A DNA stretch of 64,000 bases from Nitrospira sp. (GTDB lineage: Bacteria > Nitrospirota > Nitrospiria > Nitrospirales > Nitrospiraceae), in contig CP126122.1 in assembly GCA_030123565.1 (NCBI GenBank), positions 4,416,800 through 4,480,799 of the forward strand, in the 5' to 3' direction. A model generated the notes under the pieces. The model saw nothing but the letters and a program-made list of their open reading frames with translations. It searched no databases and was not told the origin of the DNA. Position numbers and translations under genes: made by a program. This document shows positions 24,340-29,993 of the stretch, piece by piece (within the stretch, counting starts at the first letter, position 1; each line of letters opens with the position of its first letter).

Positions 24340-24660
24340 ATGGCTGAAAAGATTCACATCGATGTACCGAAGGACCAGATTGCTGCCTTCTGCCGAAAAT
24401 GGAAGGTCGCGGAACTGGCTCTGTTCGGCTCCGTGTTGCGGGGAGATTTCCAACCAGAGAGTGATGTGGACGTACTGGTCACATTCGCCCAACAGGCGGA
24501 TTGGGGATTCGAGCACCTGTTGGATATGAAGACAGAGCTGGAAGGGCTATTGGGGCGACCGGTCGACCTGGTGGAAAAAAGACTGATAGACGAAAGCCCC
24601 AACTACATCCGCCGAAAACATATCCTGACCCACATGGAAACCATCTATGTGGCGCGATGA
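24340..24660 (+). CDS. MNT-domain nucleotidyltransferase (antitoxin of HEPN/MNT pair)
   Basis: 106 residues. The minimal nucleotidyltransferase motif is complete: [20 protein letters not shown] (Gly30-Ser31, Arg34-Gly35, Asp42, Asp44), followed by GRPVDLVEK with the third acidic position. MntA-type antitoxins AMPylate the partner HEPN toxin to silence it. The next gene overlaps its end by 14 bases, the usual arrangement of such pairs. Confidence 0.88.
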
Positions 24661-24943
24661 TGCGTATCTGTTGGACATGCTCCTCGCAGCTAAACGCGTC
24701 ATGGAATTTCGAAGCGACCTCACGTGGGATCAATTTCGACAAAGTCACCTACACCAGCAGGCTATTGCAAAAGCTCTTGAAAATATCGGAGAGGCTGCCG
24801 GGAAAGTGTCGGAAGAGATCGCAATACGACATCGAATTGTTCACGATTATTTTCGTCTGGATCTCTTAAGAGTCTGGGAGGTCGCAACCAATGATGTGCC
24901 GAACTTGGTAGCTGCGATTGAACCTCATGCCCCGCCCGAATAG
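24647..24943 (+). CDS. HEPN (DUF86) toxin-like protein with internal deletion
   Basis: 98 residues. The N-terminal helix ([15 protein letters not shown]) and [19 protein letters not shown] are typical DUF86, and the RNase motif R-x4-H-x-Y is present (Arg61, His66, Tyr68 in [10 protein letters not shown]). Between SEE and IRHR about 14 residues normally reading like HPEIPWRQIIGM are absent. The missing part lies immediately before the active site, so the toxin may be weakened or inactive. Overlaps the MNT gene. Confidence 0.8.
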
Positions 24944-25100
24944 CCCCGACGGCGGCCGCAGCTGTTAGCTGTTGCCTTCAGGAAAGTCGAGCCATCTGTC
25001 GGTATCTGAACAACCCTCTGTCGTGATCCCTCTCGCTGCGGCCCGTTTACACCACCTCTTGCCTCACACCTAACCGCCATCCCGCATACTCGCCAGCTAG

Positions 25101-25210
25101 TGTCCTGTCTCTGAAATTCGTTGCATTGATCCGCAAGGTTGCTCCCCCTCTCTCTTACCCTCTCCCCCACCGGGGGAGAGGAGACAGTGAGGGGGCAAAC
25201 CGCTGGGGGT
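25101..25210. repeat. Intergenic repeat unit A, copy 2
   Basis: GTCTCTGAAATTCGTTGCAT, then the C/T-rich run with CTCTCCCCCACCGGGGGAGAG and GGGGGCAAACCGC, collinear with 1921-2030. The remainder of the 24944-25237 gap shows nothing. Confidence 0.6.
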
Positions 25211-25241
25211 TATGACATGAATCTTTGAGACATCACACTAG

Positions 25242-26074
25242 ACAGTGTCGTCACGAGATGTGACATGATGGAGGGTCATGCTGCACCGAAGGAGGTTGAG
25301 CATGAAACCATCACATCGTCGACAGGATCTATCCGACAGAACGTGGGAACTGCTGGAGCCGCATTTGCCCGGGCGCAAGGGCGTGTGGGGCGGCATCGCG
25401 AAGGATAATCGCATGTTTCTCAATGCCGTCTTCTGGATGTTACGCACCGGCGCCCCGTGGCGGGATTTGCCGCCGGACTTGGGGGACTGGAAGAACGTGC
25501 AGCGGCGGTTTTGCCGTTGGCGGGACGAAGGGATGTGGGAGAAACTGCTCGAAACCGTGCTCGATGAGCCGGACGATGAATGGCTGATGATCGACGCCAG
25601 TCATTGTAACGTGCACCCGCACGCGGCAGGCGCCAAGGGCGGCAATCAAGAGATGAGCCGGACAAAAGGGGGCTCACCACCAAGATCCATCTGGCCGTGG
25701 ATGCGCATGGTATGCCGCTCAGAGTCGTGGTCACGCAAGGTACCGTGGCAGATTGCACGCAAGCTGGCCGCTTGATGGAAGGGATCGCGGCAGAGCATCT
25801 GATTGCCGATAACGGCTACGACAGCGATGCGATCGTCGATCAGGCCACAAGCCGGGGCATGAACGCGGTGATTCCGCTCAGAAAAAACAGAACCACGCAA
25901 AGGCTTTACGACGAGGATCTGTACAAACTGCGGCATCGGGTCGAGAACGCATTCCTGCAGCTCAAACGCTGGCGCGGTATCGCCACCCGATACGCCCAAA
26001 ATGCCGCGTCATTCCTCGCTGCCGTGCACATCAGGTGCATCGCTCTTTGGGCGGCTATCTCGTGACGACACTAT
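25242..26074 (+). mobile_element. Complete IS5-family insertion sequence (833 bp)
   Basis: Terminal inverted repeats ACAGTGTCGTCACGAG (25242-25257) and CTCGTGACGACACTAT (26059-26074, complement ATAGTGTCGTCACGAG) match 15 of 16. Both ends are bordered by CTAG (25238-25241 and 26075-26078), a 4-bp target duplication of the kind IS5 elements make. One transposase in two frames fills the interior. Intact ends and DDE residues suggest recent arrival. Confidence 0.9.
25302..26065 (+). CDS. IS5-family transposase made by -1 frameshift (two overlapping frames)
   Basis: ATG 25302 has AAGGAGG 7 bases upstream. The first frame encodes KPSHRRQDLSDRTWELLEP through MIDASH (first catalytic Asp) to NQEMSRTKGG. 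The second continues GL-TTKIHLAVDAHGMPLRV, IADNGYDSD (second Asp) and HRVENAFLQLKRW (Glu). The frames meet at the run AAAAGGGGG (25664-25672), a slippery sequence of the type used by IS427-like members for programmed -1 frameshifting. The zero frame alone runs on to 25775. Stop TGA 26063-26065 lies within the right terminal repeat. Confidence 0.88.
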
Positions 26075-26100
26075 CTAGCAAATCACGATCAGAGTGGGAG

Positions 26101-26150
26101 GCGAGGTGGGTGGTGTGGTCTCTATGCTCGCGCAACGTACGGCCTCGGAA
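26101..26150. repeat. Palindromic intergenic element B, partial copy 4
   Basis: GGTGTGGTCTCTATGCTCGC followed by GCAACGTACGGCCTCGGAAG matches the left half of element B (16440-16470). The right half is missing. Lies 27 bases right of the IS. Confidence 0.6.
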
Positions 26151-26220
26151 GAAAATAAAGGGAGTCAGCCTGAGATCAAGGAACACGTGTGTTCGGGGCA
26201 CCGGCATTTCTAGAGACTTG

Positions 26221-26272
26221 GTTGATTTCTCGACGGGAAACGGGTATCCCTCAGCGGCGCAGGCTCAGGGGA
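26221..26272 (+). repeat. Direct repeat C, copy 2
   Basis: GTTGATTTCTCGACGGGAAA, CGGGTATCCCTCAGCGGC, GGCTCAGGGG; same orientation as 24285-24332. The two copies bracket the MNT/HEPN pair and the IS. Confidence 0.65.
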
Positions 26273-26279
26273 TTGTTGC

Positions 26280-26384
26280 ATGCCCACACTGAATTGGATC
26301 GGGAAAGAAGCGGTCGTGAATCATCACCGGCGGACGGAACGCATTTTGATTCGGCTGAAGCCCTACGAGATCACCGTGAGTTGA
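26280..26384 (+). pseudogene. N-terminal stub of a type III DNA methyltransferase (mod)
   Basis: ATG 26280 encodes MPTLNWIGKEAVVNHHR, the strongly conserved opening of type III Mod proteins. Then, without a stop, come 17 residues (RTERILIRLKPYEITVS) that end at TGA 26382. The methyltransferase body (DPPY and FxGxG motifs) is absent. The stub is immediately followed by the ORF6N gene, so the junction is probably an internal deletion that left the operon spacing intact. Confidence 0.6.
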
Positions 26385-26387
26385 TTG

Positions 26388-26927
26388 ATGTCTTCCCGCA
26401 AACCCGCCGTCGCTCTTGATTCTCTGGAACCCTTGATCCTCGTCATCAGGGGGTGCCGCGTCATTCTCGACACGGATTTGGCTCGGTTGTACGGGGTGCC
26501 CACCTTTCGCTTCAATGAAGCAGTAAAACGCAATTCCCGCCGTTTTCCCGAGGATTTCATGTTTCAGTTGACGGGCGATGAGTTGGCCGGTTTGACATCG
26601 CACATTGCGATATCAAAACCAGGCCGTGGTGGGCGGCGAACGCGTCCCTATGCGTTTACGGAATACGGGGCCGTCATGGCCGCGAACATTCTTCGCAGCG
26701 ATCGGGCTGTCCAGATGAGCGTGTTTGTGGTGCGGGCGTTCGTCCGCTTGCGTGAGCATATTGCCGCCAATCAAGCCATTCTGAAACGTTTGGGCGAGAT
26801 CGACCGGACCTTGCTTGAACATGACTCAGCGCTGTTGGATTTGTATGAGAAGCTGTTGCCGCTGTTGCAGCCGCCTCCCGACCTTCCCAAACGGCGAATC
26901 GGTTTCCATTCGAAGGGCAAAGCGTGA
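26388..26927 (+). CDS. ORF6N (KilA-N-related) DNA-binding domain protein
   Basis: 179 residues from ATG 26388 (TTG 26385 also possible). The ORF6N domain fills residues 10-100: LILVIRGCRVILDTDLARLYG, VKRNSRRFPEDFMFQLT, and YAFTEYGAVMAANILRSDRA. The C-terminal half is a predicted coiled coil (IAANQAILKRLGEIDRTL). Such proteins occur in phages and between mod and res of type III R-M operons. Here it is the only intact gene between a mod stub and a res stub. Likely a DNA-binding regulator. Confidence 0.85.
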   Translation: MSSRKPAVALDSLEPLILVIRGCRVILDTDLARLYGVPTFRFNEAVKRNSRRFPEDFMFQLTGDELAGLTSHIAISKPGRGGRRTRPYAFTEYGAVMAANILRSDRAVQMSVFVVRAFVRLREHIAANQAILKRLGEIDRTLLEHDSALLDLYEKLLPLLQPPPDLPKRRIGFHSKGKA

Positions 26928-27037
26928 TTGCGCTCAAGGATTACCAAGAGCGGGTGCCCGATTCGCTGCGTGCGGTCGAAAAGGGCGAGGTGACCGGACT
27001 CCTCGCGCAAGACTCGAAGAAGCCAAACGACTCGTAG
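26924..27037 (+). pseudogene. N-terminal stub of a type III restriction enzyme (res)
   Basis: GTG 26924 overlaps the ORF6N stop (GTGA) and encodes VIALKDYQERVPDSLRA, matching the conserved start of type III Res helicase subunits (I-x-L-K-x-Y-Q-x-R-V-L-D-S-L-R). After that the frame runs 20 unrelated codons to TAG 27035. All helicase and nuclease motifs are missing. Together with 26280-26384 it outlines a collapsed mod-orf6N-res operon. Confidence 0.55.
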
Positions 27038-27432
27038 AAGAGGCGCCGGGGTAAATCATGGTCTGGGTGACTTGTTGGTGCTAGCCTGCTTACGGCGTAA
27101 ATAACTGATCACAAATTATGATCAGTTGCAGCGTTGACGCAGAGGAAAAACGAGCGGTCGGGGCCGTGTGGGCTTCTCGGAGCGGCGGCCGCTGCCTGTT
27201 TGCGATGCCGACTGCAGGCGATTTTTCGGGAATCAGGAAGATCCTTGAGCGGAGATAAGCTGCAGTCTGTCTGTCTGGCATGGTTGCTGTTAAACCTCTA
27301 TGCGCTGTGGTCCTGCAGCCGATGGGCTGTGGGCTAGAATAGGGTACTGCGTCGCTCTCGCGGCATCGGTGGTCCATTGTCTCGAATTGACGGCGAGCGG
27401 CGAGTGGCATAGAGTAATTCTTACAATAGGGG
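27038..27432. other. Gene-free stretch with a 9-bp dyad
   Basis: About 395 bases without a convincing gene. The only clear structure is AACTGATCA (27103-27111), 7 bases, TGATCAGTT (27119-27127), a possible operator or small hairpin. A promoter for the toxin-antitoxin pair should lie near 27380-27430, but no strong boxes are seen. Confidence 0.4.
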
Positions 27433-27624
27433 ATGTCGACCATGGGTGCTCAGACCGCCAAACAAAAGATTCTTGAAGCTGTTGAGCGACTGCCGGATGA
27501 TGCCACGCTCGAAGATGCCATCGAGCGGCTCTGTTTCCTCTCAAAAGTAGAAGAAGGGGTTCGCCAGTCTGATGCCGGTGAGACGGTACCGCATCAAGAA
27601 GCTGTTCGCCAACTACTCGGATGA
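27433..27624 (+). CDS. Antitoxin of a ParE/RelE-type module
   Basis: 63 residues (ATG 27433, or 27442). Mostly helical: KQKILEAVERLPDDATLEDAIERLCFLSKVEEGVRQSDAG. The I-E-R-L-x-F-L-x-K-V-E-x-G pattern is common in small antitoxins encoded ahead of ParE-like toxins. The toxin ATG overlaps its stop (ATGA at 27621), so translation is coupled. Confidence 0.8.
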   Translation: MSTMGAQTAKQKILEAVERLPDDATLEDAIERLCFLSKVEEGVRQSDAGETVPHQEAVRQLLG

Positions 27625-27908
27625 CCCTCCTCTGGACTCGGCGTGCTCTTGCTGACGTTCAGGCCATCAAGCAATTCATTGCCAAAGATTCTCCGCATGC
27701 CGCCAAATTGGTGACGCAACGACTCGTGGCCGCAGTGGACCGCTTGATACTGTTTCCTCAGTCGGGTCGGATTGTGCCCGAACTTGCCGATCCACAGATT
27801 CGTGAAGTCGTTCAGGGCTCCTATCGCATTGTCTATCGCTTGATCGAGAAACAGGTGCACATCCTCACCATCCACCACACAGCCCGCCTGTTCGCTTTGG
27901 GACAATAG
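27621..27908 (+). CDS. RelE/ParE superfamily toxin
   Basis: 95 residues, the usual size. Family pattern is complete: LLWTRRALADVQAIKQFIAK, ...RLILFPQSGRIVPELADPQ, IREVVQGSYRIVYRLIEK and VHILTIHHTARLF. ParE toxins poison DNA gyrase, while RelE relatives cut mRNA on ribosomes. The R-x-V-x-x-x-Y-R-I-V-Y-R core alone does not decide between them. Downstream of its antitoxin, in the accessory region. Confidence 0.9.
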   Translation: MTLLWTRRALADVQAIKQFIAKDSPHAAKLVTQRLVAAVDRLILFPQSGRIVPELADPQIREVVQGSYRIVYRLIEKQVHILTIHHTARLFALGQ

Positions 27909-28142: not shown

Positions 28143-28205
28143 GGGCCACCGGGCCAACCCTCCCTCCTTGTTTTTCCTTCGACCCCTTCGCTATACTTCG
28201 GCGCT

Positions 28206-28496
28206 ATGAGTATCAGAAAAGCCGCCGGTGATTGGGAGCCCATGCTGCTGGGGATCGAGCCCCGGCTGTGCAAGGTCTGCCGGCAGGGCCTCTATCGCGA
28301 CAAGACGATGTTGCGCGGCGGGTGGTCGCGTTGCGCGGTCTGCGATGAGTTCGTGCACTACAGTTGCCTCGCCAGCGGCAAGGTCAATTTCCTGAAGGCT
28401 CGTCCGCGCATCTGCAAAACCTGCCGGACGGCCGAGGAGCAAGCCAAGCAGGCCGCTCCTTCCCCTTCGAACCAGCCCGCTCCCGTCGGGTCATGA
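28206..28496 (+). CDS. Small protein with a PHD-finger-like C4HC3 zinc motif
   Basis: 96 residues. The putative ligands are Cys22-x2-Cys25-x17-Cys43-x2-Cys46-x4-His51-x2-Cys54-x15-Cys70-x2-Cys73, the exact ligand order and loop sizes of a PHD finger. The centre, CAVCDEFVHYSCL, resembles C-x-x-C-D-x-x-x-H-x-x-C-L of eukaryotic PHD domains. No other domain is present; the C-terminus is Ala/Pro/Ser-rich. Its stop overlaps the start of the next gene (ATGA). It could be a generic zinc ribbon rather than a true PHD domain. Confidence 0.7.
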   Translation: MSIRKAAGDWEPMLLGIEPRLCKVCRQGLYRDKTMLRGGWSRCAVCDEFVHYSCLASGKVNFLKARPRICKTCRTAEEQAKQAAPSPSNQPAPVGS

Positions 28497-28825
28497 CCCT
28501 CGTCGATCCTCAACAACGATCAACCAGGCCTGCCTGGCACGTGTTCTTTTCCCACGGCCTGCGCTATGTGCTCGCCCCGGTTTTGTTTCTCTCCAGCGGA
28601 TTCTTTACGGCCAATTTCATCGTGAGCGGACATTACACCTGGCCGCGGACGAGCCGGGTCTTCGTGCTGACGCTCACCTTGCTCATTCTCGCCTACGAGT
28701 TCATATACAAAGACCATACGGTTCGGTCCGGATCGCCCGATCGGGCATTCAACGCCGTACTGTATTCCTGTATGGTTCCCTATGCTCTCGGTGTGCTCAT
28801 GATGCTGGGGTTGGCGAAACTGTAG
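28493..28825 (+). CDS. Small integral membrane protein, function unknown
   Basis: 110 residues from ATG 28493, which overlaps the zinc-finger gene stop. Three predicted membrane helices: YVLAPVLFLSSGFFTANFIV, SRVFVLTLTLLILAYEFIY and LYSCMVPYALGVLMMLGLAKL. No motif is recognised. Coupling to the zinc-finger gene suggests shared function. Confidence 0.65.
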   Translation: MTLVDPQQRSTRPAWHVFFSHGLRYVLAPVLFLSSGFFTANFIVSGHYTWPRTSRVFVLTLTLLILAYEFIYKDHTVRSGSPDRAFNAVLYSCMVPYALGVLMMLGLAKL

Positions 28826-28962: not shown

Positions 28963-29340
28963 ATGGGGCAGCGGTACCAAAGCGGCGCCTTCGTGCAACA
29001 ATGTTTCGCGGTCCATCCCCTGTGTCTGTCGTTGAAGCGAATCGACGACGAGGGACGGCTCCTGGTCGCCTGCACCTCCTGCCGCATGATGCATCTCATG
29101 GTACCGGAGCAGGTGGTGGCGCGCGTGGCCGTCGTGCCGCTCGGAGGCGAGGCGGTCGGGGGGAAGGCGGCGCCGACCACGGCGAAGGAATTGCTGACGG
29201 CTTGCCTCCAGGAGCATGCGATGGCGGTCACCATTCGAGAGCTGGATGTGATCCGTGACAGCGTCGGATTGCGTTGCGCCGAGTGCCGCCGCATGTTCGA
29301 CCTGCAGATCTCAACCTTCGAATCCCACCAGAAGTCGTGA
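28963..29340 (+). CDS. Conserved hypothetical protein with two CxxC knuckles
   Basis: 125 residues from ATG 28963 (GTG 28957 is in frame). Two zinc-knuckle-like pairs, LVACTSCRMMHLM and LRCAECRRMFDLQ, lie about 60 residues apart and could form one zinc site. The first follows LCLSLKRIDDEGR. Family not recognised. The GTG of a possible longer form of the next gene overlaps its stop. Confidence 0.6.
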   Translation: MGQRYQSGAFVQQCFAVHPLCLSLKRIDDEGRLLVACTSCRMMHLMVPEQVVARVAVVPLGGEAVGGKAAPTTAKELLTACLQEHAMAVTIRELDVIRDSVGLRCAECRRMFDLQISTFESHQKS

Positions 29341-29363: not shown

Positions 29364-29993
29364 ATGGCTACCCTCTCACCTGATCGATTCCTGACGCCGG
29401 ACGAGGTGAAGCTGGTCGCGGACCGGGATCTGTTCCGAGCCAAGGAGCGTATTATCCTCAAGGTTCGAGACCTGCTCACGGAGCTTCACCGGGGGCTGCG
29501 GGAAGACCTGGGTCGGAGCACGTTGCTGTTGCCGCCGGAATTCGACCCAACCAAAGTGCAGTTCGTCAAGGGCGAGCATCTGGAGCATTGCCCCTATCAA
29601 TACCTGGACTACCCGAAACATTTCCTGGGCGACGAGAAGTTCACCTTTCGATCCCTGTGCTGGTGGGGGCACCAGCTCGTCTTCGCGATGATCGTCGAAG
29701 GGGGCCAGGTGAAGCAGTACCGGAAAAACTTCGTCGATCGATTCCATCAAATGGCCGGTCAGGGGCTGGAACTCTCGCTGGCTCCCACGTTGTGGGAATG
29801 GAAACAGGGCGAGGGCTACACCCTGCCGATCACCCACGACCGCAAGGCTCAACTGGCGGCGGTTCTGTCGGGCCGGTCCCGATTCAAGATCGCACGGTTT
29901 CTGCCGTTGGATCACCCGGTGATGCGTGAAGGCCGTTTGCCGGAATTGGGCCGTGACACCTTCCGGAGCCTGCTTCCGCTTCTGAGTCCCTGA
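29364..29993 (+). CDS. Hypothetical cytoplasmic protein
   Basis: 209 residues from ATG 29364; GTG 29337 would overlap the previous stop and add 9 residues. The sequence is soluble: FLTPDEVKLVADRDLFRAKERI at the start, then TFRSLCWWGHQLVFAMIVEGG. No catalytic motif is recognised. It probably forms one unit with the preceding CxxC protein, given the spacing. Confidence 0.6.
   Translation: MATLSPDRFLTPDEVKLVADRDLFRAKERIILKVRDLLTELHRGLREDLGRSTLLLPPEFDPTKVQFVKGEHLEHCPYQYLDYPKHFLGDEKFTFRSLCWWGHQLVFAMIVEGGQVKQYRKNFVDRFHQMAGQGLELSLAPTLWEWKQGEGYTLPITHDRKAQLAAVLSGRSRFKIARFLPLDHPVMREGRLPELGRDTFRSLLPLLSP

Follow-up and report, generated by a model that had tools for sequence, protein, structure and literature searches.

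PHD and FYVE fingers are usually regarded as devices of eukaryotic chromatin and endosomes. A canonical PHD finger carries a Trp two residues before its seventh zinc ligand, and RINGv domains, which also use C4HC3 ligands, are membrane associated in MARCH proteins. Among prokaryotes, binuclear treble clefs that include the Prok-RING and bacterial B-box domains were reportedly described by Burroughs et al. in 2011. FYVE and PHD domains are counted among the cross-braced treble clefs, which hold two zinc ions at interlaced sites (PMC4999995), and the prokaryotic B-box, another binuclear treble clef, is described as acting on membrane proteins, in their folding, stability, and proteolysis (PMC4506424).

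A C4HC3 zinc motif in a small Nitrospira gene

The window analyzed here is a 64,000-nucleotide stretch of a Nitrospira genome. A gene on its forward strand (28206 to 28496; ATG at 28206, TGA at 28496) encodes a 96-residue protein, and alignments of homologs place a C4HC3 zinc domain between C22 and C73 (28269 to 28424, same strand). A sequence-only reading of this DNA had claimed that ligand order and loop lengths match those of a PHD finger, and this was borne out exactly: the open reading frame contains C22-x2-C25-x17-C43-x2-C46-x4-H51-x2-C54-x15-C70-x2-C73. When a general PHD pattern was run across all six frames, this gene was the one match in the whole window, and none was found in 100 codon-shuffled windows. 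The PHD-type ligand motif is real and above chance.

Conservation of the ligands extends across 121 distinct homologous sequences. All seven Cys ligands are invariant, and ligand 5, the His51 on whose conservation the sequence-only reading had staked its claim, is His in 120 of 121, the single Cys occurring in the zinc gene of locus L041 (FVCYACL). The first loop is 17 residues long in all 121 sequences, and the last loop is 15 residues in 113, 13 in seven, and 16 in one. Sequences had to carry GGW and the set spacing of ligands 3 to 6 to enter this collection, with no condition placed on the His, the last CxxC, or the precise first-loop length; a separate alignment of sequences gathered without the GGW and spacing requirement gave the same invariants. 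Beyond the ligands, V24, R31, T34, G38, G39, W40, R42, L55, K64, R66, P67, and R68 are invariant, as is L15 directly before the zinc domain. The domain is basic in every member, with a net charge of +3 to +10.

The zinc gene is a core gene of one order

Homologs were present in 57 of 61 relatives of the window genome, including all 47 of good quality, and spanned four families of the order. A sample of the phylum included 98 genomes from the order, of which 96 had the gene, as a single copy; none of the 197 other genomes had it. Relatives beyond the phylum were assessed by a single peptide-pattern scan of a species collection, in which the best 80 of 133 matches were labeled Nitrospira, Nitrospirae/Nitrospirota, or Nitrospiraceae, with two exceptions, one record labeled Nitrosospira and one labeled Proteobacteria. 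Median dN/dS was 0.05 across 98 pairs. The gene is under strong purifying selection, and it is a nearly universal, strongly constrained core gene of the order.

A mobile origin was considered and rejected, as plasmids, phages, and IMG/VR viral contigs yielded no homolog. Membership in a known family was also rejected: NCBIfam has no family for the protein, and matches in PHROGs and PADLOC were at chance level. A literature search found no paper on this protein family. A long frame extending upstream of the gene in genome G275 resembled a natural fusion and was likewise rejected, since the frame merely runs over the divergent farnesyl diphosphate (FPP) synthase gene and the real zinc gene begins at the usual ATG.

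Predicted fold

Two structural models address whether the zinc sites are interleaved, as in a cross-brace, or arranged as tandem ribbons. An AlphaFold2 model of the window protein, built from a 41-sequence alignment, was of moderate confidence (pLDDT, 67.6; pTM, 0.46) and contained a beta hairpin (residues 40 to 42 and 49 to 51) and a C-terminal helix (71 to 82). Among the 50 Foldseek matches listed for this model, nearly all were FYVE, Rab-effector FYVE-like, or PHD domains, and none had an E value below 0.001. After realignment the best matches were melanophilin (2zet; Z, 6.5) and rabphilin (1zbd; Z, 5.5); a FYVE domain (2yw8) gave a Z of 5.2 and a root mean square deviation of 1.9 over 50 residues, and the top PHD match was BPTF (Z, 4.4). 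A divergent relative of 76 residues was modeled separately from an alignment of its own (pLDDT, 65.3), and most matches to this second AlphaFold model were PHD fingers. The two models draw on overlapping sequence sets, and their matches are nearly all of the PHD/FYVE type, yet with Z scores below 7 at pLDDT values of 65 to 68. An interleaved two-zinc cross-brace is thus the likely fold, and the models favor it over tandem ribbons.

A PHD/FYVE-like domain outside PHD and FYVE proper

The window protein fell short of Pfam cutoffs for both PHD models, scoring 18.3 versus 30.6 bits for PF16866 and 16.1 versus 24 bits for PF00628. Across 26 family members, PHD and PHD_4 gave subthreshold matches in 23 each (best PHD E value family-wide, 0.0004), while C1 (PF00130) matched all 26 (best E value, 4.6e-5), again below threshold for the window protein. 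In a profile comparison with ligand positions held fixed, the PHD score was equaled or exceeded by 3 of 40 shuffled sequences and the C1 score by 1 of 40, a result that favors neither PHD nor C1 over the other; likeness to FYVE was no better than that of ligand-fixed shuffles.

At the position of the canonical PHD Trp, all 121 sequences carry Arg (R68). This residue is followed mostly by Ile or Val at position 69 and by the invariant C70, a combination that we take to correspond to the RVC motif of FYVE domains. The other FYVE motifs, R(R/K)HHCR and WxxD, are absent, with GGWxRC present instead. Loss of the conserved Trp is also seen in atypical PHDs (PMC3799622). In being basic in every member, the zinc domain differs from most of the PHD sequences with which it was compared.

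The family shares with PHD fingers (PF00628/PF16866) the C4HC3 order, the four residues from ligand 4 to the His and the two from there to ligand 6, and, as predicted by the models, a two-strand sheet, a C-terminal helix, and the cross-brace fold. It differs in its scores below Pfam cutoffs, the Arg at the Trp site, and its basic charge, and the bacterial domain stands alone beside a membrane gene with no histone substrate found. Rab-effector FYVE-like fingers (rabphilin, melanophilin, and Slp4) and FYVE domains provided the best structural matches to the window-protein model and have in common with it the RVC motif at ligand 7, the C-terminal helix, the basic character, and a link to membranes, whereas the family has His rather than Cys at ligand 5, lacks R(R/K)HHCR and WxxD, and resembles FYVE profiles no more than the shuffled control does. 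C1 domains (PF00130) have a similar GxxCxxCxxxxHxxC-like core and are the best Pfam match by member count, but the family has no conserved N-terminal His ligand and ends in a CxxC pair that is absent from C1. Like the prokaryotic Prok-RING and B-box treble clefs, this would be a bacterial two-zinc cross-brace linked to a membrane protein, although neither model was among the matches listed in the Pfam scan. Taken together, the subthreshold PHD and C1 scores, the replacement of Trp by Arg, the missing FYVE motifs, the basic charge, and the failure to find a histone fold in 21 genomes place the domain as PHD/FYVE-like and not as PHD or FYVE proper.

The sequence-only reading had pointed out that PHD fingers read histone tails in eukaryotes, a role that found no support for this protein. 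A search for the histone fold (PF00808) found none in 21 genomes, with control matches in three archaea; on this basis a histone substrate was rejected, and binding of the histone H3 tail is unlikely. With PHD scores that are subthreshold and shared with C1, an invariant Arg at the Trp site, and conserved basic residues, a histone-reader role is unsupported. The protein could instead be a genuine PHD-type peptide reader whose target is a free N-terminal tail on some bacterial protein of the nucleoid or envelope. Its C4HC3 ligands and PHD-like loop lengths, the nearly exclusive PHD matches of the most divergent member's model, and the recurrent PHD and PHD_4 matches noted above speak for such a reader; the Arg at the Trp site and the missing histone-fold proteins weigh against it, as does the basic character of the domain, in contrast to BAZ2A/B, which require acidic patches to bind H3 (PMC5415848). 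We judge this reading unlikely.

A modification-system component of the RING or RINGv (C4HC3) type, acting on a membrane protein, would also account for the ligand set and a membrane association like that of MARCH proteins, and zf-RING_2 matched weakly in 8 of 26 members. The spacing of two residues between ligands 3 and 4 and four between ligands 4 and 5 is instead PHD/FYVE-like, the model scores are weak, RINGv matched a single member of 26 (E value, 0.027), and no ubiquitin-system gene was noticed beside the zinc gene, making this explanation very improbable.

A membrane protein gene is coupled to the zinc gene

Directly downstream, in ATGA overlap with the zinc gene, lies a forward-strand gene (28493 to 28825) whose 110-residue product has three hydrophobic stretches and reaches no Pfam cutoff. 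Pairing with this gene, described from the sequence alone as translational coupling to a three-helix membrane protein, was confirmed across the family: the 4-base start/stop overlap occurs at 127 of 142 loci, and a profile search of the phylum sample found the membrane gene in 68 genomes, each of them a member of the order that also has the zinc gene. In each of the 68 the two genes adjoin on the same strand and contig, the membrane gene lying 18 to 319 bases away from where the zinc-gene match ends, and no genome of the sample had the membrane gene without the zinc gene.

The reverse situation exists. Within the Nitrospira family, a single genus-level group accounts for 28 genomes that have the zinc gene but in which the membrane gene was not detected anywhere; at loci of this type the next gene comes directly after the zinc gene. 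The membrane gene has thus been lost from one Nitrospira lineage that keeps the zinc gene, which means that the membrane partner is not always needed; with 28 genomes carrying the zinc gene only and none the partner only, the dependence is that of the partner on the zinc gene and not the reverse. The lineage includes loci L114, L117, L120, L144, and L176, among others, and several of its records are, judging by name, presumably complete ammonia oxidizers. Residue 28 of the zinc protein tracks the loss, being mostly Gly in genomes with the partner and Asp in those without; because a single lineage is involved, ancestry may be the cause of this pattern.

Gene neighborhood

In three families of the order (f1 to f3), the gene pair stands back to back with genes for FPP synthase, the hopanoid-associated epimerase HpnA, and a CruF-like protein, the first scoring above the NCBIfam FPPsyn cutoff and HpnA above its own. 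These three genes form a conserved divergent block, seen for example at loci L031, L033, L037, L042, and L049. In the window, an insertion of about 4.5 kb with transposase and toxin-antitoxin genes parts the pair from the FPP synthase block. The inserted block (24340 to 27908) carries a ParE toxin gene (PF05016) with a small gene upstream of it and, judged by reading the sequence, a putative nucleotidyltransferase/HEPN-type pair, a putative IS5-like transposase split over two frames, and a putative ORF6N-like gene. Downstream of the pair on the forward strand are genes for a small four-Cys protein (CxxC...CxxC; 28963 to 29340; 57 of 58 Nitrospira loci) and a 209-residue protein (29364 to 29993; 58 of 58 Nitrospira loci), both restricted to the window's own family (f1) and neither belonging to a Pfam or NCBIfam family.

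The arrangement raises the possibility that the zinc protein is a nucleic-acid-binding regulator, perhaps of the divergent FPP synthase, HpnA, and CruF-like genes that share its intergenic region. Strong basic charge and the back-to-back orientation with FPP synthase in three families fit this idea. Many genomes, those of the window and of family f4 among them, retain the membrane gene although the FPP synthase block is lost or far away, and no DNA-binding fold was detected; a regulator of this kind therefore seems improbable.

A conserved promoter next to the start codon

Conserved across the upstream regions are a −35 element (TTGTTT, 28168 to 28173) and a −10 element (TATACT, 28192 to 28197) on the forward strand, the latter ending 8 nucleotides before the ATG. 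Of 119 distinct upstream regions, 116 had TTG followed by TANA(C/A)T at a spacing of 17 to 18, ending 6 to 10 bases before the ATG, where shuffled sequences would give 0.1. The arrangement was absent from the starts of the window's 73 long open reading frames; it is kept in three families of the order, the three exceptions all belonging to family f4. Shine-Dalgarno-like bases occurred in only 2 of the 119 regions. With the −10 element this close to the ATG, the start codon falls at the predicted transcription start, and the zinc-gene mRNA is predicted to be leaderless. A generic promoter scan did not find this promoter, because its −35 element holds only three consensus bases.

The small size of the gene, its conserved and predicted leaderless promoter, and the seven invariant Cys residues would also suit a sensor of zinc or of zinc-thiol redox state, or a chaperone under redox control, through which oxidation of the Cys ligands would govern the membrane partner in the manner of Hsp33 or mycobacterial Ruc. 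Such a sensor leaves the invariant basic residues unexplained, and the interleaved structural zinc sites of a cross-brace fold are usually inert. We consider it rather unlikely.

Proposed role

Near-constant co-encoding with a small membrane protein makes the cell membrane a more likely site of action than histones. The protein would be a small, strongly basic, cytosolic one consisting of a single PHD/FYVE-class zinc domain, binuclear and cross-braced, and its translationally coupled three-helix partner would tether it to the inner membrane. The invariant R31, R42, K64, R66, and R68 would hold an anionic partner, for which phospholipid head groups, an acidic protein segment, and nucleic acid are candidates. 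Linked to the membrane, the protein may thus serve as an adaptor or an assembly factor and be a housekeeping part of the envelope that does not read histones. In favor of this role are the invariant ligands and basic residues, the strong purifying selection, the nearly universal single-copy presence in the order, the FYVE, Rab-effector, and PHD matches of both models, the RVC-like motif, the constant adjacency of the membrane gene where that gene is present, the back-to-back isoprenoid neighborhood in three of four families, and the membrane-protein roles described for prokaryotic B-box domains. Against it stand the moderate confidence of the models, the missing R(R/K)HHCR and WxxD motifs, and a profile likeness to FYVE no better than that of shuffles. 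That it is a zinc adaptor linked to the membrane and directed at an anionic partner, and not a histone reader, is a function we infer and put forward as a good possibility at somewhat short of even chances, confidence being limited by the lineage that lacks the membrane partner. The fuller proposal, in which the PHD/FYVE class has a branch native to bacteria that is inherited vertically as a core gene of one order and acts as a membrane-linked adaptor with a dedicated membrane partner outside both chromatin and ubiquitin systems, is offered more tentatively.

If this is true, a bacterial relative would reveal a role for this fold outside chromatin and endosomes, and the PHD/FYVE fold would be in use in a lineage without detected histones. 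The two genes are a small, tractable, and so far unnamed core gene pair of an order that includes the Nitrospira nitrite oxidizers.
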